This document shows positions 12,359-61,709 of a stretch of 61,709 bases of DNA, in pieces; the stretch's first letter is position 1, and the number at the start of each line of letters is the position of its first letter. The stretch comes from Candidatus Bathyanammoxibius amoris (GTDB lineage: Bacteria; Planctomycetota; Brocadiia; Brocadiales; Bathyanammoxibiaceae), in contig JAMXCW010000012.1 in assembly GCA_024451685.1 (NCBI GenBank), positions 1 through 61,709 on the forward strand, written 5' to 3'. The notes beneath the pieces are model-generated. The model was not told the DNA's origin, ran no database searches, and saw nothing but the letters and a program-made list of their open reading frames with translations. A program made the translations under genes and the position numbers.

Positions 12359-12397
12359 TACTAAAGGTTGGAATTACCGGTTATAAGGACTTTTTCT

Positions 12398-28496: not shown

Positions 28497-28566
28497 CCTT
28501 ACACTTTTGTAAACTTTGCACGTTGCCGTGGCCCAAAGCCTGTTCCGGGCCAGGGGGTTAATATAC

Positions 28567-29511: not shown

Positions 29512-29536
29512 ACGATATTAGATTAGTACGGTGTTT

Positions 29537-29564
29537 TGAGTGCGGAGTTATGAGTACGGAGTTG
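29537..29564. repeat. Two tandem 14-bp repeats upstream of the second amt gene
   Basis: TGAGTGCGGAGTTA (29537-29550) is followed directly by TGAGTACGGAGTTG (29551-29564). Downstream, TTAACTG (29591-29597) and CAGTTAA (29618-29624) form an inverted pair. Either could bind a regulator of amt. Confidence 0.4.
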
Positions 29565-29659
29565 TCGTGTCTTTTAGAAAAGTAGTTCGTTTAACTGAAA
29601 AGTAACGTACAATTTAACAGTTAAGTAGGCAGGATAATTCTCTAACAAAGGAGAGGAAT

Positions 29660-34947: not shown

Positions 34948-35296
34948 AGACGCTGCTTCTTGATTCGGCCAGTACAAGACTACGACAGCCCCCAGCACCA
35001 ACCCGTCGTCCCGCCCGGCCGGATGTTAGAAAACACTATCCTCAAATCACATCCAGGAATGACGTAATACTAACAGAACACAAGAGTTATGTCAAATGCA
35101 ATAAAAGCATACCTGGGAAAATGTCCTTGCCATACCCGGGACTTTCTGTTAGACTCCCGGCACTTTTTTCCTGTGTTAATCAATTTATTTGTTATAGTAC
35201 GGTCCATGGTCTCCTCATTCCAGTACAGCAACGTTAGTTGTTCCTGCCATGTACCTCACACCCGAACGAGCGAGGCGAAAGGAGACGCAGCGTATA
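34948..35296. other. Divergent spacer between purH and PPDK
   Basis: A TATAGT at 35193-35198 could be a -10 for the PPDK gene, but no good -35 accompanies it. I see no gene or repeat. Confidence 0.4.
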
Positions 35297-38371: not shown

Positions 38372-39097
38372 TTACTTACTTTTACCCAGCAATCTTTTGC
38401 GCAGGAGGCGGCGTTTGATGTGGGCTATGGACCGGGGCGGGTCAAGCTCCTTGGGGCAGCACTGGCAGGCAAAGACGTTGTGGCACCTCCACGCGCCATA
38501 CGGGCCGTCTGCCTGCTCTATTCTCAGATTATGGATGCCGTCACGGGTGTCCCTCACGTAGCGGTCTATCTTAAGTAACGCCGCGGGACCTATATACTCC
38601 TTACTTGTAAGGGTAATCGGGCATGCCGAGTAGCAGCTGGCGCACTGGATGCAGTCTATAACCATATCCAGTTCCTTCCTGTCCTCCTGGCTCTGGATTC
38701 GTTCCTTTTCGGGCGGGGGTGAGCCGGGGACTAGATACGGCCTTACCAGCTCATGCTTCTCCCAGAACTGGTCCATATTCACACAAAGGTCTTTCTCTAC
38801 CTCCAGGTGGGCAAGGGGCCTGATGGTGATTTCTTGTGTCTTTAGCGATGCGACCTGCGTGTTACAGGCAAGCCTGTGCTTACCGTTTATATGCATGGCG
38901 CAGGAACCGCATACGCCGGCCCTGCACGATGACCTGAAGGCCAGAGAACCGTCCAGGTTCTCCAGTATGTAATTAAGCCCGTCGAGCACGGTCAATCCCT
39001 TCCCGTTATCAGGCAGGGGCACGCGGTAGGCCTGAAGGTGAGGTTCACTGCCTGAATCAGGGTCGTAGCGTAAGACGTTGAAGGTTATGTCCGCCAC
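38372..39097 (-). CDS. sdhB: Succinate dehydrogenase/fumarate reductase iron-sulfur subunit
   Basis: SdhB relays electrons between SdhA and the membrane quinone site. The 241-residue protein has the 2Fe-2S motif CRAGVCGSCAMHINGKHRLAC. The 4Fe-4S motif CIQCASCYSACP follows, then the segment CHNVFACQCCPKELDP for the 3Fe-4S centre and remaining ligands. The start is a GTG directly after the sdhA stop, with AGGAAATA upstream, so translation is coupled. It is the last gene of the acn-mdh-sdhDCAB run. Confidence 0.96.
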   Translation of the reverse strand: MADITFNVLRYDPDSGSEPHLQAYRVPLPDNGKGLTVLDGLNYILENLDGSLAFRSSCRAGVCGSCAMHINGKHRLACNTQVASLKTQEITIRPLAHLEVEKDLCVNMDQFWEKHELVRPYLVPGSPPPEKERIQSQEDRKELDMVIDCIQCASCYSACPITLTSKEYIGPAALLKIDRYVRDTRDGIHNLRIEQADGPYGAWRCHNVFACQCCPKELDPPRSIAHIKRRLLRKRLLGKSK

Positions 39098-40837
39098 CTA
39101 GTATTTCCTCTCTTCCAATTCAAACGGGCCGGGTCTGACTTTGCTGTACTTGAGCTTGGCGCCGTCCCTGGAATAATATGCCCTGGTATGCTTGTGCCAC
39201 TTCTCATCGTCACGCCTGGGGAAATCGGTGCGGGAGTGTGACCCCCGGCTCTCTTTCCTTGCAAGTGCCCCCGCCGCCACGGCCTCGGCCACGTCAAGAC
39301 TGCCCTCAAGCTCAAGGGCCGACTGCAGCGACAGGTTCCACCTCCTGCCAGCCGTGTGGCGCAGCGAAACGTTCCTGAAGCGCTCCCTGAGTCCTTTTAT
39401 GACAGCAAGTGCGTCGGTAAGCGCCGGCTTCTCGCGAAATACGCCCACCTTCCCGGCCATGACCTCTGCCATCTCCTTCTTCAAGACGGCGACGTCCTCG
39501 CCGTCCTCTCTTGCCAGTAGCTGCTCGATCTTCCCTTCGGTTTTCTTTAGCGCCACTTCGTGTATCTTGCCGGGCTTAGTACCTGCCAGCTTCTTACCCT
39601 GAACATACCTGGCGGCATTATCGCCGGCGATCTTGCCGAAAACCAGCGTCTCAAGCAGTGAATTGCCCCCAAGCCGGTTGGCCCCGTGGACGCTGACGCA
39701 AGACACCTCACCCGCCGCGTAGAGGCCGCCCACGATTGTCTCACATTCCGTATTACACTCAATCCCGCCCATAGTATAGTGATGCCCCGGCTGGACGGGG
39801 ATAAGGTCCGTAATAGGGTCTATGCCGCCAAATTCCATACATATCGTCCGGATGCCGTGAAGCCTGGACATTATCTTCTCCCGGCCCAGATGACGGAGGT
39901 CCAGGTGTACATAGCCGCCGTCTCCTTTAAATCCCCTGCCCTCCTGCATCTCCCGGGTAATGTTCCTGGACACTATGTCGCGCGGCGCCACCTCCATGGC
40001 CTTCTCGGAATCCGGGTAATTGGCCAAAAATCTCTCGCCTTTATTGTTTAACAGGAACCCGCCTTCCCCTCTCGCACCTTCGGTTATCAGTATATTCTTA
40101 CCCACCAGGGTGGTTGGATGGAACTGTTCGAATTCCATGTCCTTCAGCGGTACACCCGCCCAGTAGGGGACCGCCATGCCTATTCCCGTGTTGATAAGCG
40201 CGTTTGTCGTATTGCCATAAATCCTTCCAGAGCCACCAGTTGCAAATATGACAGCACCCGCGGCGAAGGCCTCAAGCCTGCCGCTGCTAAGTTCCATCGC
40301 CACTACCCCCTTGCACTCGTCATCCTCCCTCACAAGCGCCAGCACCAGCCACTCAGGATAAAGAACCAGCTCCTTCCGCTCGGCGGCCTGCTTGAACCTG
40401 ATCACCTGTTCATAGATGGTGTGCAGAAGCGCTTGGCCCGTGGTATCGGCGGCGTAGCATGTCCTGGGAAATCCGGCCCCGCCGAAGGGCCTCTGTGCTA
40501 TCTTCCCATCGTCCGTACGGCTAAACGGGCATCCCCAGTGCTCAATCTCGTACACGCGCGAGGCGGCGTCACCTGTCATCCGGAGGACCGCGTCCTGGTC
40601 GGCAAGGAAGTCACTCCCCCTGACCGTGTCATACGCGTGTTTCTCCCAGCCGTCGTGCCCGCCCCTCGGATGATTGCCGAGCGAGGCGTTAATGCCGCCC
40701 TGCGCGGCTACGGAGTGTGACCGCAGCGGGTGTACCTTGGAGAGTATACCCGCCTTAAGGTTCATCTCATTGGCCGCAACGGCTGCCCTCAGCCCCGCAA
40801 GCCCGCCTCCAACTATCAATATGTCATGATAAGGCAC
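39098..40837 (-). CDS. sdhA: Succinate dehydrogenase/fumarate reductase flavoprotein subunit
   Basis: SdhA holds FAD and the succinate/fumarate site. The 579-residue protein starts with the dinucleotide fold [15 protein letters not shown]. It has the flavin-linked histidine in [17 protein letters not shown], the substrate loop [12 protein letters not shown] and [11 protein letters not shown]. The cap and C-terminal segment ([22 protein letters not shown]) are normal. The start is GTG with AAGGGGG just upstream. Sequence alone does not decide whether it runs as succinate oxidase or fumarate reductase here. Confidence 0.96.
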
Positions 40838-40847
40838 AAAAACCCCC

Positions 40848-41213
40848 TTAAAAGAATATCCCTAAGCTGTACACCGCTACCACGGCAAGGATACCCGCCG
40901 ACAACAGTAGAAGTCTTCCCTGCACCGCAGTGAGGTCAAACAGTTCTATCAGGGTCAACCTCAGCCCGTTTACCAGATGAAGGATAACCGCGAGAAGGAG
41001 CGAGTATTCCATAAAATGCCCCACCGGGTTATCGAACTTGCTTACGGCCGCGTTAAACGCCTCCGGTCCCTGGAACGCGGCCCCAAGAGTCCATATGTGT
41101 ATAAACAAGAAGAGCACCAGCGCAACACCCGTAATCCTGTGCAGGGTGAAGGTGACCACCTCGACACCAAGGTTCAACCTGATTTCGTTTATTATCTGAC
41201 GGATAGTTTCCAT
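40848..41213 (-). CDS. sdhC: Succinate dehydrogenase cytochrome b subunit
   Basis: The 121-residue membrane anchor has three helices. The heme/quinone motifs are [17 protein letters not shown] and [16 protein letters not shown] chose the ATG at 41213 ([12 protein letters not shown]), with GGGGA upstream, over an upstream TTG. It is 10 bases from the sdhA start and follows the sdhD-like gene. Confidence 0.88.
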
Positions 41214-41229
41214 CCTCAGTTCGTTTCCC

Positions 41230-41571
41230 CTAATAAGGAGCAAAACACACTAGCACGTCAAGACCCGTAACAAACGCATAACAGCCTATAATATAAAGTG
41301 TTACCTTAAATATCATTTTCGTGGAGGAAGAGGTATTGAAATCAAGGAAGACCGCCCAAGCCCCGTTGAGCCCGTGATAAAGGAGTGTCGCCAGGAGCGC
41401 GATATAGAATGTCATCCAGCATGGAGAGCTAAGACGTGCAGCTACCTGGTCGTAAACCGGGGGACCGGTTCCATTATGGAGCATACAAAAATGGACAATA
41501 ACCCCCGCACTGAGGAATAGGCCACTTATTCGCTGTAAGAGCCAAGGCCAGAGACTTGAGCCACCGGTCAT
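41230..41571 (-). CDS. sdhD: Succinate dehydrogenase second membrane anchor
   Basis: The 113-residue protein has three helices, with WLLQRISGLFLSAGVIVHF and LYHGLNGAWAVFLDF. These match the SdhD pattern (an R-x-S-G helix start and an H-x-x-x-G heme helix). It lies between mdh (9-base gap) and sdhC (about 16 bases). Position and composition support the role; sequence identity in this family is low. Confidence 0.82.
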   Translation of the reverse strand: MTGGSSLWPWLLQRISGLFLSAGVIVHFCMLHNGTGPPVYDQVAARLSSPCWMTFYIALLATLLYHGLNGAWAVFLDFNTSSSTKMIFKVTLYIIGCYAFVTGLDVLVCFAPY

Positions 41572-44567: not shown

Positions 44568-45827
44568 TTACAGCGGCTCTGGCGCTACAGAGGCCTTCTC
44601 AAAATTATGGCTCTTGTGAGTACCATGACACTCCTGGCACGCCGGCGCGCGCCCCCTCCTGACGGCCCACTTGGCGATAAACTGGCCATGCAAGGAGTTT
44701 GCGGACATATCAAGCGCGGAATGGTCCGGGAATGCGCCTCCGGTGTGGCACTTCTCACAGGCTCCGGCCTTCGACGCCTGCTCTTTGGAGAACACGTGCC
44801 CCATGTGACACGAACCGCAGTCCTCGCCGGTCTCGTCCCACGGGCGCACCATGCCGAAGCGGTGACAGTCTTTGCACAGGTACATGCTCAGCAGCTTGGT
44901 ACTGAGCTCTTCCCCGCCCAAAACGGCGACCACCCTGCCCTGTATGTGCTTCGTGCCTTTAAACTCATTGTATGCCTTCTCATGACACTGTGCACAAGTG
45001 GCGCCCGTAACGTGTCCCGACCTCTCCTTGATTACGCTGTGGTCGTTTCCGTGGCACCCGTCACAGGTCACACCTTTTTCGGCGTGCCGGCCATTCGTCC
45101 ACTCCTTTACGACCTCGGGTGTGGTGTTCTTATGGCAGCCCAGGCACTCAACGTCCTTATACGTACCAATCGGTTCTATCTTGGCCTTGGGGTGAGATTT
45201 CTTCATCTCGGTGTACGCCTTGAACAGGTCTCCCGGCATGTGCGGGTGTACCAGGCCTGCATGACACTCTACGCAGAGAATCTGTTTGAGTACGCCTTCG
45301 CCTATCTTGCGCGTGCTCTTCAATACGGTGGGTACGTGTGTCTTGTCTTTCGTATACTCCTCGGAATGGCACCTTACGCAGTTACTGTTTATTATCGGTA
45401 TACTATCTTCGGCAACCTCTATAATCCTGCCGTCGGAGAAGGTTCCTTTCAGGTGTTCAATGGTGTCGTGTGTACCGTCACTAAGCTTTGCATGAAGGAA
45501 ACCCGCCAGTCCGGCCCCCACGTGACACTCATGGCAGTTGTGCACGTGTTCGTTGTGGTGTTTTGATTCCATAAAGGAGGTGTAATGTATGTCCATCTCA
45601 TGGCATAACTTGCCGCAGAAGGCAACCGTCTCGGAGTAGTGGTACATCTTCAGGTTGCCTATCATGAATACTGCGAGGAAGATGACAAGGCCGATTCCTA
45701 CTGTCTTCTTATTTTCCTTTACCCAGTTTACCGCCTTGGTTCTCAAACACCCGCATTCGTCGTCATCATGATCATGACCATGATGGTGGCTGTGACCATG
45801 ATGGTGTTCCGTATCTTCTTCTGCCAT
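44568..45827 (-). CDS. Membrane-anchored 11-heme cytochrome: NapC/NrfH-type domain fused to an HAO-like heptaheme module
   Basis: The 419-residue protein has a His-rich cytoplasmic tail (HHHGHSHHHGHDH) and one helix (about 43-60). Eleven heme motifs follow: a CxxxCH at 71-76 and CxxCH at 98, 150, 185, 228, 255, 278, 318, 337, 357 and 397. The first four are NapC-like (FCGKLCHEM, SKHHNEHVHNCHECHVGAG). The other seven follow the order and context of hemes 1-7 in the two octahemes of this window. Examples are CLGCH...TPEVVKEWTNGRH, CDGCHGNDH, CAQCH, then CEKCH and CQECH. It ends where heme 8 would begin. It could link quinol to an octaheme or act as one. Confidence 0.85.
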   Translation of the reverse strand: MAEEDTEHHHGHSHHHGHDHDDDECGCLRTKAVNWVKENKKTVGIGLVIFLAVFMIGNLKMYHYSETVAFCGKLCHEMDIHYTSFMESKHHNEHVHNCHECHVGAGLAGFLHAKLSDGTHDTIEHLKGTFSDGRIIEVAEDSIPIINSNCVRCHSEEYTKDKTHVPTVLKSTRKIGEGVLKQILCVECHAGLVHPHMPGDLFKAYTEMKKSHPKAKIEPIGTYKDVECLGCHKNTTPEVVKEWTNGRHAEKGVTCDGCHGNDHSVIKERSGHVTGATCAQCHEKAYNEFKGTKHIQGRVVAVLGGEELSTKLLSMYLCKDCHRFGMVRPWDETGEDCGSCHMGHVFSKEQASKAGACEKCHTGGAFPDHSALDMSANSLHGQFIAKWAVRRGRAPACQECHGTHKSHNFEKASVAPEPL

Positions 45828-46018: not shown

Positions 46019-47437
46019 ATGAGGCTTTTTTTGTGCTTGCTATTTATCGTAACTATTTGCATGTCAACGTCTTTAGCCTGGTCTGACACGGAGACGTCGA
46101 ACATAAAAAGATGTCCGCAATGTGGCCAGATATACCAGAAAGACATACAGTTTTGTGGAAAAGACGGTACGGAACTGGAGGTTGTGGAAGGTGAGCTTGT
46201 ATGCCCCAGATGCAAACAGAAGGGGGCGCCCGACGAGACGTTCTGCCGTAATGACGGTGAACGACTTGAGCCTGTTACAGCAGAGAAACAACAAGAAGCC
46301 CCGCGGGAGCTCGGCACGGAAGAGCTTAAGGAACTGCTCAAGGGGCGCATCGAGAGGGCCGACCGGCTGAGGGAAGAGGCGTATTACGAGGACGCACTGG
46401 CCGAGTACCTAAAGGTATTGGAATTAGCGCCTTCAGACCCGTCTCTGCACTACAAGCTGGGAGGCATATACTGGCAGCTGGGGGACAAAAAGACGGCCCT
46501 GAAGCATCTGGACAAGTCTCTCAAGCTGATACCCTACGAGAATACTGCGGCAAGGGAGCGGATAGAACGCTACGTGGACACTCTGGAGGCGGCTGAGATC
46601 GGCCTGAAGCCCAGAGAAAAGGAGGAAAGACGAAGAGAGAAGGAAGGCCGGAGGGCCGAGTTAATGGCCAAGGGCCTGGAAGAAAACAGGGCCAAATGGA
46701 GCGAGATGGCCATTATTCCGGCAGGCAGCTTTGTGATGGGAAGCAAATCCAGGGAAGAGATGAGCCAGAACGCGCGTCTGGAGGAGACACCCCAGAGAGA
46801 GGTATATCTGGACGCCTTCTACATTGACAAGTATGAGCTTACCAACGCCGAGTACTGGGAGTTCTTGCAGTACATTCGCGACACTGGCGACCATAGCAAG
46901 TGCTATCAAGACGAACCGAAGAACAAAAACCACACGCCAGAAAAGTGGTATGAAGACAGGTACTTCGACCACCCTGACTTTCCCGTAGTGAGGGTGGACT
47001 GGTATGACGCCTACGCCTACGCCGCGTGGGCAGGGAAGCGCCTGCCCAGCGAGGCGGAATGGGAAAAGGCGGCAAGGGGCACCGACGGCAGGCGGTTTCC
47101 CTGGGGAGACGTCTTCAGCGCCTCAAGGGTCAACTGGGGGGCAACGGGCCCTCTAACTGTCGGCAGCTACACCGAAGGCGACAGCGTCTTCGGTTGTCAC
47201 GATGTGGCAGGCGGCGTAATCGAGTGGTGCAACGATTGGTTCGACCGTTACTACTACAAGAGGGGTCCGGCATCCAACCCTAAAGGGCCGGAAAAATCTA
47301 CCGGTGTGAGGTCTATGCGGGGAGGCTCCATGTTCGCGAATTCAGCGTATTTACTCAGATGTCCCAAAAGGTCCTTTGGCAGACCGGACGAGAGGAACAA
47401 GGCGGTCGGGTTCCGCACGGCTGCGGACACAGAGTAG
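46019..47437 (+). CDS. Exported protein with two zinc-ribbon-like motifs, TPR and sulfatase-modifying-factor (FGE-like) domain
   Basis: The 472-residue protein has a signal peptide (LFLCLLFIVTICMSTSLA). Two short Cys-rich motifs follow (CPQCG...FCGKDG and CPRC...FCRNDG). A helical TPR-like part (about 110-185) and a charged helix lead to the FGE-sulfatase domain from about 230. That domain contains PAGSFVMGS, FYIDKYELTNAEYWEFLQ, RLPSEAEWEKAARG, DVAGGVIEWCNDWF and MRGGSMF. Catalytic activity is uncertain, as many such proteins are structural or binding modules. GGAGG lies upstream of the ATG. It is divergent from the 11-heme cytochrome and convergent with the TPR gene. Confidence 0.85.
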   Translation: MRLFLCLLFIVTICMSTSLAWSDTETSNIKRCPQCGQIYQKDIQFCGKDGTELEVVEGELVCPRCKQKGAPDETFCRNDGERLEPVTAEKQQEAPRELGTEELKELLKGRIERADRLREEAYYEDALAEYLKVLELAPSDPSLHYKLGGIYWQLGDKKTALKHLDKSLKLIPYENTAARERIERYVDTLEAAEIGLKPREKEERRREKEGRRAELMAKGLEENRAKWSEMAIIPAGSFVMGSKSREEMSQNARLEETPQREVYLDAFYIDKYELTNAEYWEFLQYIRDTGDHSKCYQDEPKNKNHTPEKWYEDRYFDHPDFPVVRVDWYDAYAYAAWAGKRLPSEAEWEKAARGTDGRRFPWGDVFSASRVNWGATGPLTVGSYTEGDSVFGCHDVAGGVIEWCNDWFDRYYYKRGPASNPKGPEKSTGVRSMRGGSMFANSAYLLRCPKRSFGRPDERNKAVGFRTAADTE

Positions 47438-47497: not shown

Positions 47498-49654
47498 TTA
47501 TCTCACGTATTCATTTGGGTCGGGGAGCAGTTCCCTTTCCTCAATGACCTTACGCCCAACCCCCGTAGCGTCCTTCATTGAAGCCTTTACCTTTTCGTAC
47601 TGTACACGGAAGCTTTCGGCCTCCGCCCTCATATCCCACTCTTCGTATATCTTGGCCACGTTATAATAGGCGTCGGCATACAGCCGGTTCAACCGTATGG
47701 TCTTTTGATACTCCTTCATGGCTTCTTCCAGGTCGCCTTTCATGTAGAGGAGGGTGGCCAGGTTAAAACGGGCATGGTCGTGGTCCGGGTCGAGTTCCAC
47801 TGCCTCTCTTGTCTTCTCAAGAGCCTCGACCATCATCCCCTTCTTGGCATATATCACGCCTACCAGATAATGCCCCTCTGCAAGCTTCGGATCGGACTCC
47901 AGGGCCTTGTTAAACTGCTCCAGCGACTTGTCAAACATCGCCTGCGCATAGTATAGAAGCCCAAGATTGATCCGGCCCTGAGGATAGTCGGGATTTATTC
48001 TCAAGGCCCTTTCGTATGCCGTTATCGCCTCCTCATATCTTTCCTGTTCCTGAAATGCAAGGGCGCGGTTAAAGTGGGCCTTGTCATAATCCGGTTTGAG
48101 CTCTATACACCGTTCATAGTAGGGGGCCGCCTTTTCCGGAAGATGCAGATCCTGGTACAACACACCCAGGTTATAGTACGCGCTCGCATTGTACGGGTCC
48201 AATTCGAGCACCTTATTATACTCTTCCCTTGCCGGGTCAATATTGTTCCTACGGTGGAAAAACATTCCAAGCTCCAGGTGGGCCTTCGGGTCGTTAGGGT
48301 CCCGTTCTATGGCGTTGGTCCATATCTCATATTTGTCCTTGGGCGCACCAATTTCTTTGAATGTATCGGCAAGTTGCTTGTAGGCATCTGTGTATTTCGG
48401 GTTTATGGAGACAACCTCCTTGAACGACTCGGTGGCCTCCTCCAGAAGACCCTTTTGTACGTAGGCCCTGCCCAGATGGTAATAGGCATCGGCATAATAA
48501 CGATTCAAGGCAATGGCCTCTTTGTAAAGGCCGATGGCCTCATCTGATCTGCCCTTTTCCGCCAGAGCTATCCCAAGATAGACCTTTGCCTCTACGTTGT
48601 TCGGGTCGGAATTAACGGCCTCTCTCATGGCCGCGATGAAGTCGTCGGGTTGTGAGGGCTTTATCTTTACGGCCTCCTTAAACTCAGCGATAACCCCACC
48701 CGTATCCCTCTTCTGGCTGTACGCCAGTCCCAGTGAGGTATGCGCCTCCGGGTGTTTCGGGGAAATTTCCAGCGCCTTCTTATATTCTGCAATGGCCTGG
48801 TCAACAAGACCTTTTTCCTGATAAATAAGACCAAGATAATAGTGGGCGCCCGCGTACTGCGGTTTTATCGAGAGTGTCTTCTTGTACTGCTCGGCAGCCT
48901 CATCATTTTTGCCCATTTTGGCCAGTGACTTCCCAAACCACAGCCGTGCCTCCGCATCATCAGGAAATGCGTCCAGCACAGACCTGAGTTCTTTGGTACT
49001 CTCATTCACCATACCCTTGTCCGCATATATGAAGCCAAGTGTCCTGCGGGGCTCTATCAAACCGGGTTTTATTTTTAGCGATTTCTCGCAGTTGTCTATA
49101 GCCTCGTCAAGGTCGCCGTTCCTGTAATTGGCAAGACCCATAGCCATATACACCTCGGCGTACTGCGGGTCCTTCTTAATGGCCCTTTTGCATTGCACTA
49201 TCGCCTGCTCGTATTTCCCCTGCATATTAAGTATTACCGCCAGCTTGTAATAGGCCTCCACCATGGCGGGGTTCGCCCTGACCACCTGGCGGTATTCATA
49301 TTCCGCCTTCTTCATGTCTCCCAGCTCAAAATACGCGTCTGCGCACTTTAAATGGGCCTTGACGTAGCTTGGATAGAATTTCAGCGCCAGCTTATACTCT
49401 TCAACGGCCTCCTTGTACTGCCCCTTGTCCGCATAGATGAGTCCGAGCTCCAAAAAGGCCTCCGGGTCAAACGGATTCTTTTCCAGCCACTCCTTGTACT
49501 CGCTTATGGCCCTGTCATACTCGCCCTTCTTATAAAAATCTCTTGCAAGGTCTTTGTGCAGCGCCTGGCCCTCTTCCGCAACAACGACGCCCACTGACAT
49601 TTGACCCGTCACCAGGAACATACTCAAAGCAAGCGTAAGCAGTATTCTCATCAT
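47498..49654 (-). CDS. Exported TPR-repeat protein
   Basis: The 718-residue protein has a signal peptide (MMRILLTLALSMFLVTG) and then about 18 consecutive TPR units of the form AEAYYKLAVILNMQGKYEQA / AIVQCKRAIKKDPQY. They extend nearly to the C-terminus. Such an all-TPR solenoid outside the cytoplasm would scaffold protein complexes. The ATG at 49654 has GGGG about 9 bases upstream. The open frame further upstream crosses a strong terminator (49678-49716) and is not coding. Its position next to the octaheme gene suggests, without proof, a role in assembling or holding cytochromes. Confidence 0.88.
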   Translation of the reverse strand: MMRILLTLALSMFLVTGQMSVGVVVAEEGQALHKDLARDFYKKGEYDRAISEYKEWLEKNPFDPEAFLELGLIYADKGQYKEAVEEYKLALKFYPSYVKAHLKCADAYFELGDMKKAEYEYRQVVRANPAMVEAYYKLAVILNMQGKYEQAIVQCKRAIKKDPQYAEVYMAMGLANYRNGDLDEAIDNCEKSLKIKPGLIEPRRTLGFIYADKGMVNESTKELRSVLDAFPDDAEARLWFGKSLAKMGKNDEAAEQYKKTLSIKPQYAGAHYYLGLIYQEKGLVDQAIAEYKKALEISPKHPEAHTSLGLAYSQKRDTGGVIAEFKEAVKIKPSQPDDFIAAMREAVNSDPNNVEAKVYLGIALAEKGRSDEAIGLYKEAIALNRYYADAYYHLGRAYVQKGLLEEATESFKEVVSINPKYTDAYKQLADTFKEIGAPKDKYEIWTNAIERDPNDPKAHLELGMFFHRRNNIDPAREEYNKVLELDPYNASAYYNLGVLYQDLHLPEKAAPYYERCIELKPDYDKAHFNRALAFQEQERYEEAITAYERALRINPDYPQGRINLGLLYYAQAMFDKSLEQFNKALESDPKLAEGHYLVGVIYAKKGMMVEALEKTREAVELDPDHDHARFNLATLLYMKGDLEEAMKEYQKTIRLNRLYADAYYNVAKIYEEWDMRAEAESFRVQYEKVKASMKDATGVGRKVIEERELLPDPNEYVR

Positions 49655-49677
49655 CTTAAAACCCCGTTCTATAAAAA

Positions 49678-49716
49678 AAGAGCTGCACAGAGGAAATAAG
49701 TGTCTGTGCAGCTCTT
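49678..49716 (-). terminator. Intrinsic terminator after the first octaheme gene
   Basis: On the minus strand AAGAGCTGCACAGA pairs with TCTGTGCAGCTCTT (14 bp, perfect) and is followed by seven T. A TATAGA lies right after the T-run and might help start the TPR gene. Confidence 0.9.
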
Positions 49717-49791
49717 GATTAACTAACAAAACATCTCATACAAACCTGACAAAAGCTACCTGATAACATCGAAACGGCACGAATACCAACG

Positions 49792-52011: not shown

Positions 52012-53220
52012 CTACACGAGGGAATCGCTTATCTTGTTCGCAATCGTCTTCCCGAAGGCCCTTGCCCTTTCAAGCACGTCTACTTTGGGGGGTCCCTGTA
52101 TCTCCAGTGTCTCTATCACGTCGAAGCCTGTCGGTACAAGTCTTGTCTTTATCTCCTTGGCTGCGCCGGCACCCCAACCGTAAGAGCCGAATGTGGCCAG
52201 CATCTTGCCCCTGGGCCTGATGCTCCTTATGACCTCCACCGGGGTGGCAAGCTTTGGATGCATACCACCATAAAATGCAGGCGAGCCGAAGACAATCGCG
52301 CTGCAGTCAACGAGGTCTGAGACTATGTTTGAGGCGTCAGCCTCGACCATGTTAAAGGCTGCAACCTCAATCCCCTCCTCTTTCAACGCGTCAATTACCG
52401 TTTGCGCCAGGGTGGCCGTACTGCCGTACATAGACACGTAAATAACGACCGCCTTTGCCTTTAGCGGACCCCTGGTCCATTCTTCATGGGCGTCAAGTAT
52501 GGGTTGGGGATTACGATACACGGGCCCATGGCTCGGAGCTACTATTTTTATATCCAGTTCCTTAAGTTTATCCAGGGCCTTCATGACGGGCTTTATAAAT
52601 ACCATCATTATCTCGCCATAGTATCTCTTTGCCTCGCTCAGCACTATCTCACCAATCTCGTCCTCGTAGATCGAATCCGCAGCCACGTGTGCACCAAGGA
52701 AATCGCAGGTGAAGACGGCCTTGTCCTCTTCGCAGTAGGTGAACATTGTCTCAGGCCAGTGAAGCCAGGGTGCATCGATAAACCTCAGGGTCTTGCCCCC
52801 GAGGTCTATTCTCGTTTCTTCTCCAACGGCCTCCATCCTGTTTTCCGGGACGTCGTAGTACAGTTTCGCGGCGCTCAGGCCCTTTTTCGAGGCAAGGAGA
52901 GTGGCTCCCCCGGCCAATGATAAGACGCCGGGTATTACCCCCCCGTGGTCCGGCTCTGCGTGGTTCATTACCACGTAGTCTATAGCTTCCGGTTTTACTA
53001 TCTCACTTATCTTTTTCAACAATAAGTCACCGAAGCCCACGCTCACGGTGTCAACCAGCGCCACCTTCTCCCTGCCGACTATAAGGTAGGCATTGTAGGT
53101 AGTCCCGTAACGGAGTTTCATGAAGCTGTCAAAGAGCGTGCGTTTACGGTCAAGCACACCGACCCAGAATATCCCGGGCGCTATCTCTACAGGCACCGAC
53201 GATATGTCTGTTTTACCCAT
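52012..53220 (-). CDS. Flavodiiron protein (A-type flavoprotein; O2/NO reductase)
   Basis: The 402-residue cytosolic protein has an N-terminal metallo-beta-lactamase-like diiron domain. Its ligands are NHAEPDHGG (HxExDH), a histidine in PWLHWPETM, CDFLGAH and PSHGPVYR. A flavodoxin domain follows (VIYVSMYGSTATLAQ; FGSPAFYGGMHP; FGSYGWGAGA). Such enzymes reduce O2 to water or NO to N2O. That would protect an anaerobe that handles NO, and which reaction dominates cannot be read from sequence. The ATG at 53220 has GGAAGGGG just upstream. It lies downstream of trpBA on the same strand. Confidence 0.94.
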   Translation of the reverse strand: MGKTDISSVPVEIAPGIFWVGVLDRKRTLFDSFMKLRYGTTYNAYLIVGREKVALVDTVSVGFGDLLLKKISEIVKPEAIDYVVMNHAEPDHGGVIPGVLSLAGGATLLASKKGLSAAKLYYDVPENRMEAVGEETRIDLGGKTLRFIDAPWLHWPETMFTYCEEDKAVFTCDFLGAHVAADSIYEDEIGEIVLSEAKRYYGEIMMVFIKPVMKALDKLKELDIKIVAPSHGPVYRNPQPILDAHEEWTRGPLKAKAVVIYVSMYGSTATLAQTVIDALKEEGIEVAAFNMVEADASNIVSDLVDCSAIVFGSPAFYGGMHPKLATPVEVIRSIRPRGKMLATFGSYGWGAGAAKEIKTRLVPTGFDVIETLEIQGPPKVDVLERARAFGKTIANKISDSLV

Positions 53221-53295
53221 CGACACCCCTTCCTCACACTGCGTTAAAGCGCACGATACGGGTTGCGAACCACCTCTGGCCTTATTCTACACCAT

Positions 53296-54123
53296 CTAGC
53301 AGCCTGATGTCTCCAGCTTGCCCTTGGCACCCGCAGCAAGCCTGTCTGCGAGCTGACCAACGGCGTTCACCATCTCAGAGGGGGATTTATCCATATTGCG
53401 TTCCAACTCTTTTATCAAGGCGCTGCCCACAATCACACCGTCAGCCACCTTGCCTGCCGCCCTGGCATGTTCGGGCGTAGAGATACCGAAGCCAAGCGCA
53501 ACGGGTTTATCCGTCATACCCCTCAGCTTCTCTATGTTTTCCGCCATATCTTTCGCCAGGCTGTCCCTTATCCCTGTTATCCCCACAACAGAGATGTAGT
53601 ACAGAAAGCCCTGGGTGCATTTCACAATCCTGGTCATGCGGTCAAGGTTGGTTGTCGGGGCGACGAAACAGATTATACGAAAGTTTTTTTTCTCCGCATC
53701 ACGAATAATGGCATCCGCTTCCTCTACAGGCAGGTCCGGTATAGTGGCGCCGTCAAAACCCGCATCTATTGCGCTGTCTACAAACTTCTCGGCACCTGTT
53801 TTAAAAATAATGCTGTAGGAGACCATAGACACAATGGGCATGTCCGTTTGTCTTCTCAGGTCCTTCACGAGGCGGAATACGTCGGCCACCTTCAGTCCCC
53901 TGGTAAGCGCCCTGTAGTAGGAGGCCTGAATGACGGGGCCGTCTGCGATGGGGTCGGAAAAGGGGATGCCCAGCTCTATGATGTCGGCACCACTCTTTTC
54001 GAGCCTCAGGATAAGTTCTCTTGTGACCTCAAGGCTGGGGTCACCGGCCGTTATGAACGGGATAAAGGCGGGTTCCTTCTTGCTCTTTAACAGCTTAAAC
54101 CGCTGGTCAATCCTGTTATCCAT
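53296..54123 (-). CDS. trpA: Tryptophan synthase alpha subunit
   Basis: TrpA cleaves indole-glycerol phosphate and channels indole to TrpB. The 275-residue TIM barrel has FIPFITAGDPSLE, the catalytic glutamate and aspartate in DIIELGIPFSDPIADGPVIQ, and the phosphate site GFGISTPEHA with GVIVGSAL. It starts 11 bases after trpB ends, the normal pairing. Confidence 0.96.
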   Translation of the reverse strand: MDNRIDQRFKLLKSKKEPAFIPFITAGDPSLEVTRELILRLEKSGADIIELGIPFSDPIADGPVIQASYYRALTRGLKVADVFRLVKDLRRQTDMPIVSMVSYSIIFKTGAEKFVDSAIDAGFDGATIPDLPVEEADAIIRDAEKKNFRIICFVAPTTNLDRMTRIVKCTQGFLYYISVVGITGIRDSLAKDMAENIEKLRGMTDKPVALGFGISTPEHARAAGKVADGVIVGSALIKELERNMDKSPSEMVNAVGQLADRLAAGAKGKLETSGC

Positions 54124-54134: not shown

Positions 54135-55358
54135 CTAGATCTTCAAGCCCAGCTTTGCCGCCACCTCAAAGGAGTCCTTATCGCCACTTCCTGAGAGACA
54201 GATTAGGATGATACTTTCCTTCCCGAAAGATGACGCGTTCTTGAAGGCATAAGCAAGGGCGTGGCTGGCTTCAAGGGCGGGAATTATGCCCTCTGACCTG
54301 GCGCATATTTCAAACGCCTCCAGGGCCTCGGCATCCGTAACAGACGCGTATTCCACCCTGCCTATATCCTTGAGGTAACTATGTTCAGGGCCTACGCCAG
54401 GATAGTCCAGCCCCGCGGAGATAGAGTGAACCGCCTGGGTCTGGCCGTCTTCATCCTGCAGCACATAGCTCATACTGCCGTGTAATACCCCGACCTCGCC
54501 ATGAGAGAGCGTCGCCGCGTGTTCACCGACGCGCAGGCTGAGACCGCCGGCCTCGACCCCTATCATCCTTACGCCTTCATCCCCAATAAACGGATGAAAT
54601 AGCCCGATAGAATTACTGCCGCCGCCTACACAGGCGATTAAACAGTCAGGAAGCCGATTCTCCTTTTTCAAAATCTGCCCCTTTGCTTCCCTCCCGATTA
54701 TAGTCTGGAAATCTCTCACCATTGTGGGATACGGGTGCGGACCTACCACGGAGCCAATTATGTAGTGGGTAACCCTTACCGAGGCCATCCAATCCCTCAA
54801 GGCCTCATTTGTGGCGTCTTTCAGCGTCCTGGAGCCCGTCTTAACAGGAATCACCTTTGTGCCAAGGAGTTTCATGCGGAAGACGTTCAGGGACTGACGC
54901 CGCATGTCTTCCTCACCCATATAGACATCACACTCCATACCAAACATGGCGGCCGCCGTGGCCGTGGCCACGCCATGCTGTCCGGCGCCGGTCTCGGCGA
55001 TTATCCGCTTCTTACCCATCCTCTTGGCCAGCAGCGCCTGGCCCAACGTATTATTTATCTTATGGGCGCCTGTGTGGTTCAGGTCTTCCCTCTTTAAATA
55101 CACCTTCACACCGCCCATACGCTTACCAAGCCTCTCGGCAAGATATAAGGGCGAGGGCCTCCCCACGTATTCCGTCAAATAGTAATCCAGCTCCCTCTGG
55201 AATTCCTTATCGTCTTTGGTGCTGTTGTATTCCCGCTCAAGCTGCTCAAGCGCGGGTATCAGCGTCTCTGGGACGTACCGCCCCCCAAACCTTCCGAAAC
55301 GTCCCTTCTCGGCTCGGGGCTTCTCTACGGTCATGGGCCTTGAGACACCTGTACCCAT
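54135..55358 (-). CDS. trpB: Tryptophan synthase beta subunit
   Basis: TrpB joins indole and serine with pyridoxal phosphate. The 407-residue protein has [15 protein letters not shown] and the PLP lysine in [15 protein letters not shown]. It also has [15 protein letters not shown], the phosphate loop [12 protein letters not shown] and [25 protein letters not shown] lies 9 bases before the ATG at 55358, which fixes the start. A promoter overlapping the preceding terminator appears to drive trpBA. Confidence 0.97.
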
Positions 55359-55385
55359 AGTATCAAACACCTCCTTAAAAACCGC

Positions 55386-55414
55386 ATTATACAAAAAAAA
55401 CAGGAGGGTAGCAA
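55386..55414 (-). promoter_or_regulatory. trpBA promoter embedded in the upstream terminator
   Basis: On the minus strand TTGCTA (55409-55414), a 17-bp spacer and TATAAT (55386-55391). The -35 lies in the 3' part of the hairpin stem, and the terminator T-run forms part of the spacer. Predicted start near 55378, about 20 bases before the ATG. Confidence 0.65.
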
Positions 55415-55464: not shown

Positions 55465-57111
55465 CTATTCGCCGCCTGTCAGACCCGAATCGGCGTTGTT
55501 ACGATGCGGGATATCCGTCCTCTGGAACCAGGCAAGGTCCACGTCGCCTTCTTTCCTCTTCCAACCGGAAAGCTTGTCGGTGTACTCGCCATGCTTCCAG
55601 AACCCTTGCGGCGTAAACTCGATACCGGCCTTTTCCTCAAGCGCCTTAAACCTCTTCAGCCGGCTGGCCTCTGCCTTTATCTGGATCAGCATACGGTCCT
55701 GCTCAAAGGCGCCGCCGGTTCCGTACGTGGCGTTATAAATCGCCATATGAGCAAGGGCCTTATACACGTTGTCCGTTAGGTAGCAGATCATCTCAAGTCC
55801 CATCCTCTCAATTTCTGAGACGTTGTAGAACCTTGGAGTTCCGGTGGGTAACAGACTGAAGGTATAATGGCCGTACCAGTCCGGTGCAAGGTCTGTCGGC
55901 ATCGGGTCAAGCTCCCCAGCAAGAAAGCAGCCGACAATGATGTTGGCGGCTTCACGCCACTTGGTAAAGCTCAGCCTTACGCCGTAGTCCATCGACCTGA
56001 GCTGGTCTCTTGCAAAGTTTGGAGAATGGCAGTCCATACACTTCTTGATCCATGCCTCTCTCTTTGATGCCCACTTCGGCGCGCCACGGTCAACTTCAAA
56101 CATACCCATGTCGCTGTAGATCGTTCCAAACCTCTGGACGTCGTGGTCGCCCTCCTGCATGTGGCAGTAGGCGCATGTGGGTACCCTGTGGTTGCCCTTC
56201 TTAAGAGGCTTCGTCCAGTCCGCCTGGGCCTTCTCTTCGGAATAAAGTACACCGTGCATAGAGGTGGTGTACATCTCCCACTCTCTGTGATCTACACCGA
56301 GGTGACAATACCTGCACGCGTCTGCCTTTCTGGACTCTGCGGAATTAAATCTGTGCCTGGTGTGACAGCCGTCGCACCTGTTCTCTATGATGCCGTGACA
56401 TGCCTGACAGCCGTTTACTTCTTCTGGCGGTTTCCCAAGGTGCCATGAGAACTCAAGCACGTTAACCGTCCATGCGTGGGTGTGTGAACCCAGTCCACCC
56501 GCGCGGTGTCCTGCCGTCTGCTCGGGATGACACTTCTGACAGGTCTGCCAGGTAGGCATCTGAAGTTTCTGATGGTCGTTTCCGTGACACTTGTCGCAGG
56601 CGACAACGCTTATTTCTTCACCAATCTTCTCTGCTATGGCATCAGCCTTCTTGGCCATCGCGCCGGGGTCACCCAGGTAGAATTTCTTGGCGGTCTCCGC
56701 GTCCGGTCTCGGATTGGCGTGCCCGCTCGACCTCCAGTCATTCACAATGGTCGGGGTCTGAACGGAATGACAGAGTATACACTCTTGCGCTTTAAATACA
56801 CCTTCCACGCTGTTCTTGTTAACCCAATACTCCTGTGGTCTATACCAGCGCACTACAGGCAGGAACTTAAGGAATGACTTGTAGGGCCCCATGCCGTCCA
56901 CATACGGCGGCTCAACATACTCTGACGTAAGACCAAATACGTAGAGCTCGCCGGTATCACACTTACCGACAGGCTGACCATAAATCGATGATGCGACCTC
57001 CTGAAACGTAGGGTCTGGATTGCCCAGCGACACGCTTGGGTTACCCACCAGGAAAAGCCCCAACACCGCTAAAATGGTGCAACATGCCCAGGCTCTCTCA
57101 AGAATCTTCAT
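55465..57111 (-). CDS. Octaheme hydroxylamine-oxidoreductase-like cytochrome c (HAO family)
   Basis: The 548-residue protein has a signal peptide (ending near VSLGN) and eight CxxCH motifs at about 111, 172, 191, 235, 246, 266, 313 and 358. A helical C-terminal domain follows (ERMGLEMICYLTDNVYKALAHM). Conserved histidines lie in ACDKCHGNDHQKLQMP and MHGVLY. It is a close relative of the other octaheme here but has eight normal motifs and no His-rich tail. Size suits the hydroxylamine oxidoreductase of anammox bacteria; which reaction it performs needs the cross-link tyrosine to be located. AAGGAG lies 11 bases before the ATG. Confidence 0.92.
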   Translation of the reverse strand: MKILERAWACCTILAVLGLFLVGNPSVSLGNPDPTFQEVASSIYGQPVGKCDTGELYVFGLTSEYVEPPYVDGMGPYKSFLKFLPVVRWYRPQEYWVNKNSVEGVFKAQECILCHSVQTPTIVNDWRSSGHANPRPDAETAKKFYLGDPGAMAKKADAIAEKIGEEISVVACDKCHGNDHQKLQMPTWQTCQKCHPEQTAGHRAGGLGSHTHAWTVNVLEFSWHLGKPPEEVNGCQACHGIIENRCDGCHTRHRFNSAESRKADACRYCHLGVDHREWEMYTTSMHGVLYSEEKAQADWTKPLKKGNHRVPTCAYCHMQEGDHDVQRFGTIYSDMGMFEVDRGAPKWASKREAWIKKCMDCHSPNFARDQLRSMDYGVRLSFTKWREAANIIVGCFLAGELDPMPTDLAPDWYGHYTFSLLPTGTPRFYNVSEIERMGLEMICYLTDNVYKALAHMAIYNATYGTGGAFEQDRMLIQIKAEASRLKRFKALEEKAGIEFTPQGFWKHGEYTDKLSGWKRKEGDVDLAWFQRTDIPHRNNADSGLTGGE

Positions 57112-57594: not shown

Positions 57595-58410
57595 CTAGTC
57601 GGGACGCTCGGTCAATCTTGCGCCACGGTCATTAAGATACCTCTTCTGTGCGGGGGTAAGACCTTTGGCGCCGCGCATGTCCGCATTGACAACGTCGGCA
57701 TGCTGCAGATTGACACCGCGCAGGTTTGTCCCGCGCAGGTCGACTGTGCGCATTTTGGCCCGGGTCAGAATGGCATTTGAAAGGTCTGCGTCCCTCAGTG
57801 TAGCAGAGTTCAGGTCCACGCCTGCCAGATTGACACCCGAGAGATCAACCCCCCTCAGGTCGGCGCCGCGCAGTTTCACCCCGCTCATATCCGCCCCGCC
57901 AAACTCAGTGTCGCGTATGTACGTACCGCTCAAATCGGCACCCCGCAGGTCAGCATACCCCATCTGGACGTCCACCATCCTGACATCCCTAAGGCTCGCG
58001 GCATTCAGGTCCGCACGCCTCAGGTTCGCGCCTGTCAGTTCGGCGCCACTCAGGTCGGCACCTCTCAAATTCGAACCCGCCAGAATGCTTTTCGTCAACC
58101 TGGCACCCTTCAGATTTGCACCCCTCAACATGGCGGCACTCAGGTTGGCCCCGCGCAGGTCTGCACCTTCAAGCACGGCCCCGGTCAGGTCGGCACCTAC
58201 CAGGTAGCTACGATACAGGCTTGCGCGCCGGAGGTCACAGCCAGGACACTTCTTTGTCTCCAGCAGGCGCCTTTCATTCTCCGCAACGGTGGCACCATAC
58301 ACCGGGTGCGCCAGCCCTCCCGGCATCCTCACCGGCACGCCGCCTGAAAAAAGGAGCACACTCGTGAGGATAACCGCCGCGCTTAACGCGTACTTGCATA
58401 TGCCGCCCAT
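57595..58410 (-). CDS. Exported pentapeptide-repeat protein
   Basis: The 271-residue protein has a signal peptide (KYALSAAVILTSVLLFSGG). After KKCPGCDLRRASLYRSYLVGADL come about 35 consecutive A(D/N)LxG-type pentapeptides forming a right-handed beta helix. It ends with GLTPAQKRYLNDRGARL. The role is unknown; such exported proteins may be structural. I chose the ATG at 58410 with GGGG upstream rather than the GTG at 58419. It follows hzsA on the same strand, but a strong terminator lies between them. Confidence 0.92.
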   Translation of the reverse strand: MGGICKYALSAAVILTSVLLFSGGVPVRMPGGLAHPVYGATVAENERRLLETKKCPGCDLRRASLYRSYLVGADLTGAVLEGADLRGANLSAAMLRGANLKGARLTKSILAGSNLRGADLSGAELTGANLRRADLNAASLRDVRMVDVQMGYADLRGADLSGTYIRDTEFGGADMSGVKLRGADLRGVDLSGVNLAGVDLNSATLRDADLSNAILTRAKMRTVDLRGTNLRGVNLQHADVVNADMRGAKGLTPAQKRYLNDRGARLTERPD

Positions 58411-58519
58411 TACCAGCACCCCGCTTTCGCCTTACATCAAGAGCTAAAGGGACACTTTCAGGAGCAAACATCTAACCCGGGAATGTCTAATGGAAACATC
58501 CTGCCGCCTGCCACAACAA

Positions 58520-58587: not shown

Positions 58588-61035
58588 CTAGCCACGGTAT
58601 CCGGGATAGAAGTCGGGGCCTGGGATGTTATCCCACTGTGCACCTATGTCCGCCCACTCAACGAACAGATACCTCTCATCGTTGCTGAGGAACTTGTTGT
58701 GCAGGACTCTCCCCTCCCTTGGGAACGGGTTGGCCCTGGGCGCGAAGTCGCTCAACTCATCTTCATAAAGCCTCCAGAGGAGAAGGCTGTTCCTGGCGCC
58801 GGCCGGATGCACGTACTTCCCGCCCAGCACGGGGTCTTTGCCTGGCTGCGGCGTCAGCAGGTTGTTGTAGGCCTTGCTGAACGCGGCCACGCCATTGACC
58901 TCTATGGGCGCCCCGCCACCGCTCAAGTCAAGCGGGATAGTCCCGTTGTGGCAGTTGGCGCACCTTGAGTCTATAATCGGCTGAATGTCCCTTCTGAAGT
59001 CAACCGTTCTCCACTTCTCCCTGGTCAAGCCTTCCACGGGCTGAGACGTTGTACCAGAAGGACCGCCATAGTATACGTCAGCAGGTACCACTACGTCGTT
59101 ACCGTGCTTTACGCCGGCGTAGTTGCCGTTCCTGTCAAGCCTTATACCGGCAAACAGGAATGGTGAATCATAGTGGCTCCTGTCATCATACCACCAGTTG
59201 TAAAGGGCTTTGCAGTGCTCGTTCTTGAACGCCCTTCCCCTGTAAGAACCGTCATGGCAGCCGCTGCAAATCCTGCCGCCGTACGGTCTCAGGTAGCCCC
59301 ACCACATCGCGGTACAGAGGGCCATACCTCTCTCATCCAGGGTCTGAAAAGAGGCCGGGGCGTCAGCCGGTGCAGACGTAACAACTGAACCGTCATCAAG
59401 CACGTGCTGATAACCCCATATTGTAAACTGAGCGAAAGACGTACCGCTGTTGCTGCTGGTACGGTTTCCGCCGATTAGATGGCTTCCGGCGCCGACAGTA
59501 AACCTCTTTGCGTCGGGCTCCTTGCACTGGTAACCTCCCAACACCCTGATGGCCTTTACGTCGCCCTGCTTCAGCGGCTTTGCAATCTGCCATGGGTAAG
59601 GACCAACGGTGATACCACCAATGGTTGTGCTTCCCGGAGGAGGCGTATAGGTGGTGTCGAAGCAGATACCTGTTCCCCAGGATGAGGGATAACCCTCGAT
59701 CTTCACCTGGTCGAACGGCTGGTAGGTTACGACGGTCACGCCGAAGTTCTTACCAGCGGTAAACGTGTTGATCCAGCGTGGTTTGTACTTTTTGTACACA
59801 GGGGTCGGCTGGTGGTCGTTCCACTCCGGATCGTCGTGAATCAACTCACCAACGGCACCCTTGGAGAAATCAAACCAGTATATACCAAAGTCTTCTCTCT
59901 CTGCGTAAGAGACCGCCATCCTGCCGTCAGGCACCGAGCTGGCATCCCTGTACTGACCTCTGCCGTCCGTAAGCTGACGGTAGTTGCTCTGGAACGGGGC
60001 AGTATACTTCACGCAGGCCAGTTGTCCTACACCGTAGTTCTGGTACGGGCCTTCAGTAAAGACGAGCATATTATCCGGATGCTCGTTACACTGCACCCTG
60101 GAGTGACTAATCTCGCCCTCGCCTTCGCAGTTACCGTAGAACGACTGAGGATAAGAACCATCCCAGTTGTCGGTAAAGATGGCAATCCTGCCCTTACCAT
60201 ACATCCTGTTACCTAACGCCTGTGTACTTGAGAAACCTACTCTTCCGTCCCTGGTCAGCCATGGGTCGAAATCGGAACTCATATTGTAGGTTATCTTGTC
60301 CACGACGGTATTTAGCTTCGGGAAATCGATACCACTCATCTTTGCACCGGTGATACGCTCCATCATCTTTCCACCGATGGGGTCAATCCTCCACAGCTGG
60401 TAGCTGAACTCGTTATAGTACTCATCCCTCACACCAGCAGGAGAGTAGGCAAAGATGATAAAACCTGTCTTTTCGACCTTGCCGCGGATCTCCCAGTCAC
60501 CCTCGAAATACCTGTCACGCCATACTATGTTACCTTCACCGGGCAGTATCGCGCCGGCCGGGTAATATATGGGGCTTCTGCAGTTTCCAGGAAGGTCTGT
60601 TAACTGACGGACATTAGAACCATCAACCCCCATTTCCCATATCTGTGTACAGCCGCTGCCTTTGGTACCGGCAAAAACAAACCTCTTGCCGTCCCAATCG
60701 GTGCAGGGGTCAAATGCGGTGGAAAAGCCGGACGTAAGTACTTTAACCTGCTTGCCACCGAGGTCTGTCGATACTATACGGCTACCCTCTGGGAGGTAAT
60801 TCGGGTACTGATGATAAGGGTCGCCAGCGGCTGTCTTCTTAGACTGAGTGAACAGGATCGTACTGACGTCTCCCTGCCACTCCTTGGAAATCCCCCAATA
60901 ATCAGTGTACAATGCCTTCCCCGGTTTCGGGCCACCTATGTTCACGTTAGCTGCCGATGCGCTTCCGCAAACGCCAGCTACCGTCAACAGCCCAACCGCC
61001 AGAATGGCAGTGGTCTTCAGTAACCATCGCTTCAT
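58588..61035 (-). CDS. hzsA: Hydrazine synthase subunit alpha
   Basis: This is the hydrazine-forming subunit of the anammox enzyme, which condenses an NO-derived intermediate with ammonia. With the ATG at 61035 the protein is 815 residues, with a signal peptide ending SASA. An N-terminal region with TolB-like blades comes before CSGCH (590-594), with Tyr598 four residues after the heme histidine. A second heme CANCH (692-696) and His779 follow. In the Kuenenia enzyme, as I recall it, the matching residues are His587, Tyr591, His689 and His772. The spacings 4, 102 and 83 are the same here. AAGGAGG lies 12 bases upstream. The 290-base gap to the upstream gene shows nothing I recognise. Confidence 0.96.
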   Translation of the reverse strand: MKRWLLKTTAILAVGLLTVAGVCGSASAANVNIGGPKPGKALYTDYWGISKEWQGDVSTILFTQSKKTAAGDPYHQYPNYLPEGSRIVSTDLGGKQVKVLTSGFSTAFDPCTDWDGKRFVFAGTKGSGCTQIWEMGVDGSNVRQLTDLPGNCRSPIYYPAGAILPGEGNIVWRDRYFEGDWEIRGKVEKTGFIIFAYSPAGVRDEYYNEFSYQLWRIDPIGGKMMERITGAKMSGIDFPKLNTVVDKITYNMSSDFDPWLTRDGRVGFSSTQALGNRMYGKGRIAIFTDNWDGSYPQSFYGNCEGEGEISHSRVQCNEHPDNMLVFTEGPYQNYGVGQLACVKYTAPFQSNYRQLTDGRGQYRDASSVPDGRMAVSYAEREDFGIYWFDFSKGAVGELIHDDPEWNDHQPTPVYKKYKPRWINTFTAGKNFGVTVVTYQPFDQVKIEGYPSSWGTGICFDTTYTPPPGSTTIGGITVGPYPWQIAKPLKQGDVKAIRVLGGYQCKEPDAKRFTVGAGSHLIGGNRTSSNSGTSFAQFTIWGYQHVLDDGSVVTSAPADAPASFQTLDERGMALCTAMWWGYLRPYGGRICSGCHDGSYRGRAFKNEHCKALYNWWYDDRSHYDSPFLFAGIRLDRNGNYAGVKHGNDVVVPADVYYGGPSGTTSQPVEGLTREKWRTVDFRRDIQPIIDSRCANCHNGTIPLDLSGGGAPIEVNGVAAFSKAYNNLLTPQPGKDPVLGGKYVHPAGARNSLLLWRLYEDELSDFAPRANPFPREGRVLHNKFLSNDERYLFVEWADIGAQWDNIPGPDFYPGYRG

Positions 61036-61324
61036 AACTAGTTTTGTCCTCCTTTCAGTAACGCCCAGGCACACAAAATGTCAGAGATGGCGACTCTGGC
61101 TACCGGCCTTGAACCTTTCTGCCCGCGAGTTTCTCCGCACATCACTTCCGCAGGCATGACAGGCCCCGGCGAACTTCGTGATAGCAACCGGCACCTCTGC
61201 AACTATCGCCTCTAGCGTCCCAGCAAAACCCTCCTAAATGCACAGCTCAACTCTTGTCAGGAGAGCCGCCAAGCCGGTCCAGGAGTAACGACCAAGCCCG
61301 GTCCTACTCTCTCTGCTAATACCT

Positions 61325-61709
61325 TTACAGTGCCTTCATGAACTCTACAAGGTCCTGGAGTTCGTTCTGGCTCAGCTGTGAGGTAACACCATGCTTGTCA
61401 ACTTCTGTAATGGAGTTATCTATGGAGCTCATCAGGTCCGTCGCGCTGCCGTCATGGAAATACGGCGCCGAGGCGTAGATATCCCTCAGCGTAGGAGTGT
61501 CAAACTCCTTCACAAGGTCCAGACCTATGATCGGTACGTTATACTCCTCACCATACGGGTCCACACCGGCGTCAAGGGCCTTCTTGTTGAACACGGCCCC
61601 GGGGGTAGACCTGAAACCATGTTTGCCTATCCTGCCGGTACCCTCGTCGTGGGTCTGACCATCTCCGAACATACCCCTCTTGTCCATCGGGTCGCCGGGG
61701 TGACAGTTC
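61325..61709 (-). CDS. hzsC: C-terminal part of a MauG/cytochrome-c-peroxidase-like protein, probably hydrazine synthase gamma (partial)
   Basis: The frame is open to the window edge and encodes 127 residues. It begins NCHPGDPMDKRGMFGDG, the end of a CxxCH heme site. It continues with GKHGFRSTPG, EFDTPTLRDIYASAPYFHDGSATDLMSSID and the ending LSQNELQDLVEFMKAL, all typical of the C-terminal heme domain of diheme peroxidases. Its place directly before hzsA fits the gamma subunit. In Scalindua beta and gamma are fused; the truncation prevents deciding that here. Confidence 0.85.
   Translation of the reverse strand, partial: NCHPGDPMDKRGMFGDGQTHDEGTGRIGKHGFRSTPGAVFNKKALDAGVDPYGEEYNVPIIGLDLVKEFDTPTLRDIYASAPYFHDGSATDLMSSIDNSITEVDKHGVTSQLSQNELQDLVEFMKAL

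Follow-up and report, generated by a model that had tools for sequence, protein, structure and literature searches.

The 61,709-nt window analysed here almost certainly belongs to a near-complete genome of an anammox bacterium of the family Bathyanammoxibiaceae, and carries the hydrazine part of the anammox pathway as one ~12 kb cluster. The contig joins the genes for hydrazine synthase alpha (hzsA), hydroxylamine oxidase (HOX) and hydrazine dehydrogenase (HDH) of this high-G+C genome. By homology, hydrazine synthase (HZS) would make hydrazine from NO and ammonium, HDH would convert hydrazine to N2, and HOX would return stray hydroxylamine to NO. The enzymes presumably work as in Kuenenia, and the cluster is presumably co-expressed. 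To our knowledge, no member of Bathyanammoxibiaceae is in culture.

Family placement and G+C content

G000, the genome to which the window belongs, has 2.07 Mb in 26 contigs at 95% completeness; the genome index lists it under family f1 and genus g1, and it contains a full-length 16S gene. Family f1 also holds Yes70-17 (G003), RIFCSPLOWO2_12_FULL_50_35 (G004), Bin_313 (G005), nzgw511 (G006) and NC_groundwater_1467 52_288 (G007). FULL_50_35 and 52_288 are listed as Bathyanammoxibiaceae (PMC9723696), and Bin_313 has been assigned to the same family (PMC10467342). In the HzsA tree, the window falls into a six-row clade with these five relatives (SH-aLRT 100). Its closest partner there is FULL_50_35 (100), followed by Bin_313 (96) and the full set of five (100); Brocadiaceae (99), Scalinduaceae (100) and Anammoxibacteraceae (100) form separate groups. 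The trees of SdhA, PurH and UvrC recover the same clade at SH-aLRT 99–100. The trees are midpoint-rooted and thus show clade membership, not which family branched first. The first-pass annotation had guessed at a less-studied family, for example one like Bathyanammoxibiaceae, and had proposed trees of these four proteins as the check. The HzsA branch indeed lies outside Kuenenia, Brocadia, Jettenia and Scalindua, nesting within a cultured genus is excluded, and the four trees together with the genome-index family bear the guess out.

The window counts 53.4% G+C and hzsA 54.5%, in agreement with the mid-50s estimated by eye in the same annotation; a value near 40% is excluded. Pooled over 464 kb of G000, comprising the window, two contig ends with hzs and 20 further stretches sampled from the genome, G+C is 52.4%, and the published genome of Ca. 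Bathyanammoxibius amoris has 2.1 Mb and 52.36% G+C (PMC10060263). At hzs and marker loci, G+C is 38–44% in Scalinduaceae, 38–40% in Anammoxibacteraceae and mostly 40–46% in Brocadiaceae, against mostly 47–54% in the Bathyanammoxibiaceae relatives, with one short locus at 58%. Three Brocadiaceae genomes reach 48–52%, represented only by small contigs holding little but hzs. The G+C is high relative to the other families (mostly 38–46%); within Bathyanammoxibiaceae, values described as unusually high in the first reading are the published norm. The high G+C stems from the lineage of the organism, not from foreign DNA.

We considered whether the source could be a member of Brocadiaceae or Scalinduaceae with an hzs locus that merely looks G+C-rich. 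Brocadiaceae hzs genes are truly G+C-rich, with a mean GC3 of 55 compared with 40 for housekeeping genes, and they are so even in genomes of 40% G+C, which makes G+C from hzs alone misleading; in the present case, the argument rests on the remainder of the window. With the whole window and the sampled genome at 52–53% G+C, and with four trees excluding this origin (SH-aLRT of at least 99 for the window's clade), such an origin is extremely improbable. A separate family, such as Subterrananammoxibiaceae or an unnamed one, is very unlikely. HzsA is only 86% identical to its nearest relative and the index gives G000 the genus of no named relative, as a separate family would have it, but the family code is that of the published Bathyanammoxibiaceae MAGs, and in the UvrC tree G009 (family f2, probably Subterrananammoxibiaceae) does not group with the f1 clade, its sampled loci having 42.6% G+C.

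Of the features by which Bathyanammoxibiaceae is recognized, G000 shows placement with published members, a genome of ~2 Mb and a G+C content of ~50% or more, and we found no evidence against the family or the gene identity. Further traits used to recognize the family are the lack of NirK and NirS, of urease, cyanase and flagella, and the presence of both F- and V-type ATPases. Genus g1 contains two more genomes (G001 and G002), which are more fragmented, and among the genomes compared G000 has the only complete hzsA of the genus. G001 and G002 have hzsC and hdh without hzsA, and their contigs break at the hzs locus; the missing hzsA is probably an assembly gap. Published work already covers the family, including its G+C content of ~52% and its hydrazine synthase, and the genome adds a new member.

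Gene content and order of the hydrazine cluster

The annotated genes of the window are collected in Table 1. HzsA matches the NCBIfam equivalog NF052339 with 1537 bits (cut-off 800) and chain A of PDB 5c2v, the Kuenenia HZS alpha subunit, with 1192 bits, aligning to the latter over the full length. Specifically, it has two CXXCH hemes, and all of the residues rated important in HzsA (PMC12758564) are found, namely Cys303 (the zinc ligand), His587, Ser590, Tyr591 (the Tyr at +4), His689 and His772 (the distal His) in Kuenenia numbering. The reading frame reaches 61074 with a GTG start (58588–61074, minus strand), and the ATG at 61035 is likely the real start, yielding a precursor with a signal peptide. 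In-frame TAG codons inside hzsA of G004 and G006 were considered as recoding and rejected, since these stops precede the real start.

Table 1. Genes annotated in the window, with their coordinates, strands and supporting evidence
Feature	Coordinates	Strand	Evidence and remarks
hzsC, hydrazine synthase gamma, C-terminal 127 aa	61325..61709	-	234 bits to NF052341, matching positions 213-339 of a 339-position profile
hzsA, hydrazine synthase alpha subunit	58588..61035	-	815 aa; NF052339, 5c2v_A, active-site residues
Secreted pentapeptide-repeat protein between hzsA and hox	57595..58419	-	Pfam PF00805
hox, octaheme hydroxylamine oxidoreductase	55465..57111	-	8 CXXCH; 4n4j 811 bits, 6t5e 815 bits
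trpB, tryptophan synthase beta	54135..55394	-	TIGR00263 626 bits
trpA, tryptophan synthase alpha	53296..54123	-	TIGR00262 282 bits
Flavodiiron protein, beta-lactamase-like and flavodoxin domains	52012..53226	-	PF19583, PF00258; HxExDH motif retained
hdh, hydrazine dehydrogenase, 583 aa	49792..51543	-	NF052343 1187 bits (cut-off 900); 6hif 1064 bits
TPR-repeat protein 3′ of hdh, conserved position	47498..49729	-	
Zinc-ribbon, TPR, FGE-sulfatase domain protein	46019..47437	+	Conserved position and orientation
Decaheme membrane-anchored c-type cytochrome, NrfH-like N-terminus	44568..45827	-	10 CXXCH; TIGR03153 65 bits
sdhB, sdhA, sdhC	38372..41243	-	Pfam; sdhA (39098-40837) used in tree
purH	33373..35001	-	Pfam; used in tree
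uvrC	12368..14257	+	Pfam; used in tree

In GTG-start numbering, His607 is followed by Tyr611 at +4, by His709 after 102 residues and, from there, by His792 after 83 residues. The spacing is exactly that of the Kuenenia subunit, as the first reading had noted, and its identification of hzsA is confirmed by the equivalog score and the key residues. The 102-residue spacing occurs in 32 of the 32 HzsA proteins compared and the +83 spacing in 30, the exceptions being two Anammoxibacteraceae proteins in which the aligned His is still present. Being near-universal in anammox HzsA, the spacing proves the gene and says nothing about the family, and we dropped it as family evidence. The zinc ligand Cys303 is retained in Bathyanammoxibiaceae and Brocadiaceae, and is replaced by Glu or Ser in Scalinduaceae and by Tyr in Anammoxibacteraceae.

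The octaheme protein is an orthologue of the Kuenenia enzyme of PDB 4n4j, to which it is closest, and retains the cross-link Tyr, with NATYG aligned to NQTYG. This tyrosine marks oxidative hydroxylamine oxidoreductases, so the protein is identified as HOX and not as a paralogue that reduces nitrite. The HDH sequence has seven CXXCH motifs and one CX4CH, and a Tyr aligns with the Tyr462 position. As for the source of NO, the survey gave no match for NirK; the NirS profile gave weak beta-propeller matches only, and no clear match even in a putative Kuenenia genome (G017) expected to hold NirS. Elsewhere in the window, the region 26516–31003 contains a 331-aa ORF with no Pfam or NCBIfam match, which has a different ammonium transporter gene on each side, the two transporter genes lying on opposite strands. 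At 45%, the stretch at 28–30 kb is lower in G+C than any other part of the window. Searches for tRNA genes and Rfam RNAs found none in the window.

The ~12 kb cluster runs on the minus strand in the order hzsC, hzsA, hox, trpBA, flavodiiron gene and hdh. The hzsC fragment lies 290 bp upstream of hzsA, and hzsB is intact on another contig of the genome (C13). The order hzsC-hzsA-hox-trpB-trpA-hdh-TPR recurs in Brocadia, Loosdrechtia and other Brocadiaceae, and its core also in Scalindua. The idea that the cluster is unique to the window's genome is thus refuted, the hzs-hox-trpBA-hdh order being common to Brocadiaceae and Scalinduaceae. A transfer of hzs into a non-anammox, high-G+C planctomycete could also produce a high-G+C outlier. 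We give it almost no credence, because hzsA, sdhA, purH and uvrC on the same contig yield congruent placements, HDH, HOX, hzsB and hzsC are all present, and other anammox genomes have the same gene order.

The flavodiiron gene has counterparts in other f1 genomes that are 62–72% identical and lie just 3′ of trpA wherever the contig shows it, compared with relatives of only 31–38% identity in other families. Its presence inside the hydrazine cluster is, in these comparisons, a trait of Bathyanammoxibiaceae only, and the protein could scavenge O2 or NO. The pentapeptide-repeat protein has a counterpart (43% identity) only in G004 in the synteny comparison. In most of the sampled anammox loci, hox and hdh have trpBA between them, although no functional link is apparent; in the open literature we found no paper mentioning anammox, hydrazine synthase and tryptophan synthase together. 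The hzs operon of Bathyanammoxibiaceae was unreadable in an earlier study, being split over contigs (PMC12758564). In G004, hzsB, hzsC and hzsA are contiguous, and its order hzsB-hzsC-hzsA-hox-trpBA-fdp-hdh, together with the window, answers that question of gene order.

Two hzsC copies and their homogenisation

Three contig ends of G000 carry parts of hzsC. At the end of contig C13 lie hzsB and codons 1–50 of hzsC (L232 10171–10317); the end of contig C1 (L190 9057–9404) carries codons 1–116 of another hzsC, which is not preceded by hzsB; and the window (contig C12) has codon 215 to the stop, the contig end truncating the rest of the gene. The final 77 nt of C13 are found exactly in C1, and 77 is a typical k-mer overlap length. 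Between C13 and C1, the signal-peptide codons 1–25 agree at 52 of 72 bases, whereas the readable stretch of the mature part shows no difference. These ends indicate that G000 has two hzsC genes that differ in the signal peptide and are identical in the mature part. The contigs break inside hzsC because the near-identical second copy broke the assembly. Synteny with G004 assigns the window's hzsC to the copy that follows hzsB. In the published B. amoris genome, the hzs subunits likewise lie at the ends of two contigs (PMC10060263).

A second hzsC is widespread in anammox genomes. In Brocadia-, Jettenia-, Loosdrechtia- and Scalindua-type genomes, it adjoins the same NtrC-type regulator (loci L233–L239, L099, L100 and L249 compared), and closed Brocadiaceae genomes show two hzsC with different signal peptides and a near-identical mature part. 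Full-length copies are 94–99.5% identical within a genome, compared with ~81–84% between most of the genera and species compared. Homogenisation is not equally strong everywhere: the partial Scalindua pair of G024 reaches only 85.5%, and an identity of 94.7% is seen between two Jettenia-type second copies. A tree uniting the second-locus copies as one clade was rejected (p-AU 2e-50).

Within genomes, the identity begins at about codon 16–26 and ends at the stop codon, with both flanks at background level, except in G017, where the whole block has been copied recently. An old shared position combined with a young sequence implies concerted evolution, and the comparison of copies points to long-lasting gene conversion as its simplest cause. 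In two Brocadia-type genomes, hzsBCA is doubled almost base-exactly (L039 7636–12544 and L040 7627–12544; 99.9% identity), with a G+C jump of about 10 points where the doubled block begins or ends. In B. pituitae, the limits of the doubled block coincide nearly base for base with hzsBCA, and its edge marks an increase in G+C from ~40 to 51%. GC3 is higher in hzsC than in hzsA in five of five f1 genomes, with the window contributing only 127 codons, and the second hzsC copies of Scalindua show little rise in G+C. That conversion is G+C-biased and raises hzs G+C is only a suggestion.

Taken together, we consider it probable that G000 and many other anammox genomes hold at least two dispersed hzsC copies, homogenised by repeated ectopic gene conversion of the mature coding sequence only, possibly with a G+C bias that raises hzs G+C where the genes are multi-copy. 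If so, hzsC conversion would account for the interruption of hzs by contig ends in the Bathyanammoxibiaceae assemblies published so far. The result also cautions that hzs genes serve poorly as markers for G+C and copy number and, in the case of hzsC, for tracing duplications. Earlier work has described identical hzs clusters and a partial copy of hzsBC (PMC7648391, PMC5854607, PMC12758564). Our search, which did not cover a 2018 paper that PMC7648391 cites for identical copies, found no paper on hzs gene conversion or on a conserved second hzsC locus; this side result is the part that a specialist may not expect.

Comparison with known systems

G000 resembles published Bathyanammoxibiaceae (PMC9723696; B. 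amoris, PMC10060263) in its HzsA and three housekeeping trees, its ~2.1 Mb size and ~52% G+C, its separate hzsB and hzsC, the position of hzs genes at the ends of different contigs, and the absence of a detected NirK. With the Kuenenia stuttgartiensis hydrazine synthase (5c2v/5c2w), the window's enzyme shares all heme, zinc and tyrosine ligands and the three-subunit make-up, and is about two thirds identical. HOX and HDH retain the cross-link Tyr positions of the Kuenenia enzymes (4n4j and 6hif), as well as the CX4CH heme site in HDH, and differ in sequence divergence only. In G017, hdh is far from hzs, whereas the two are neighbours in the window. As in the duplicated hzs clusters of Brocadiaceae (PMC7648391, PMC5854607, PMC12758564), the genome holds more than one near-identical hzs copy; unlike in those clusters, the doubling is seen in G000 for hzsC only, the signal peptides differ, and the second copy stands without hzsB.
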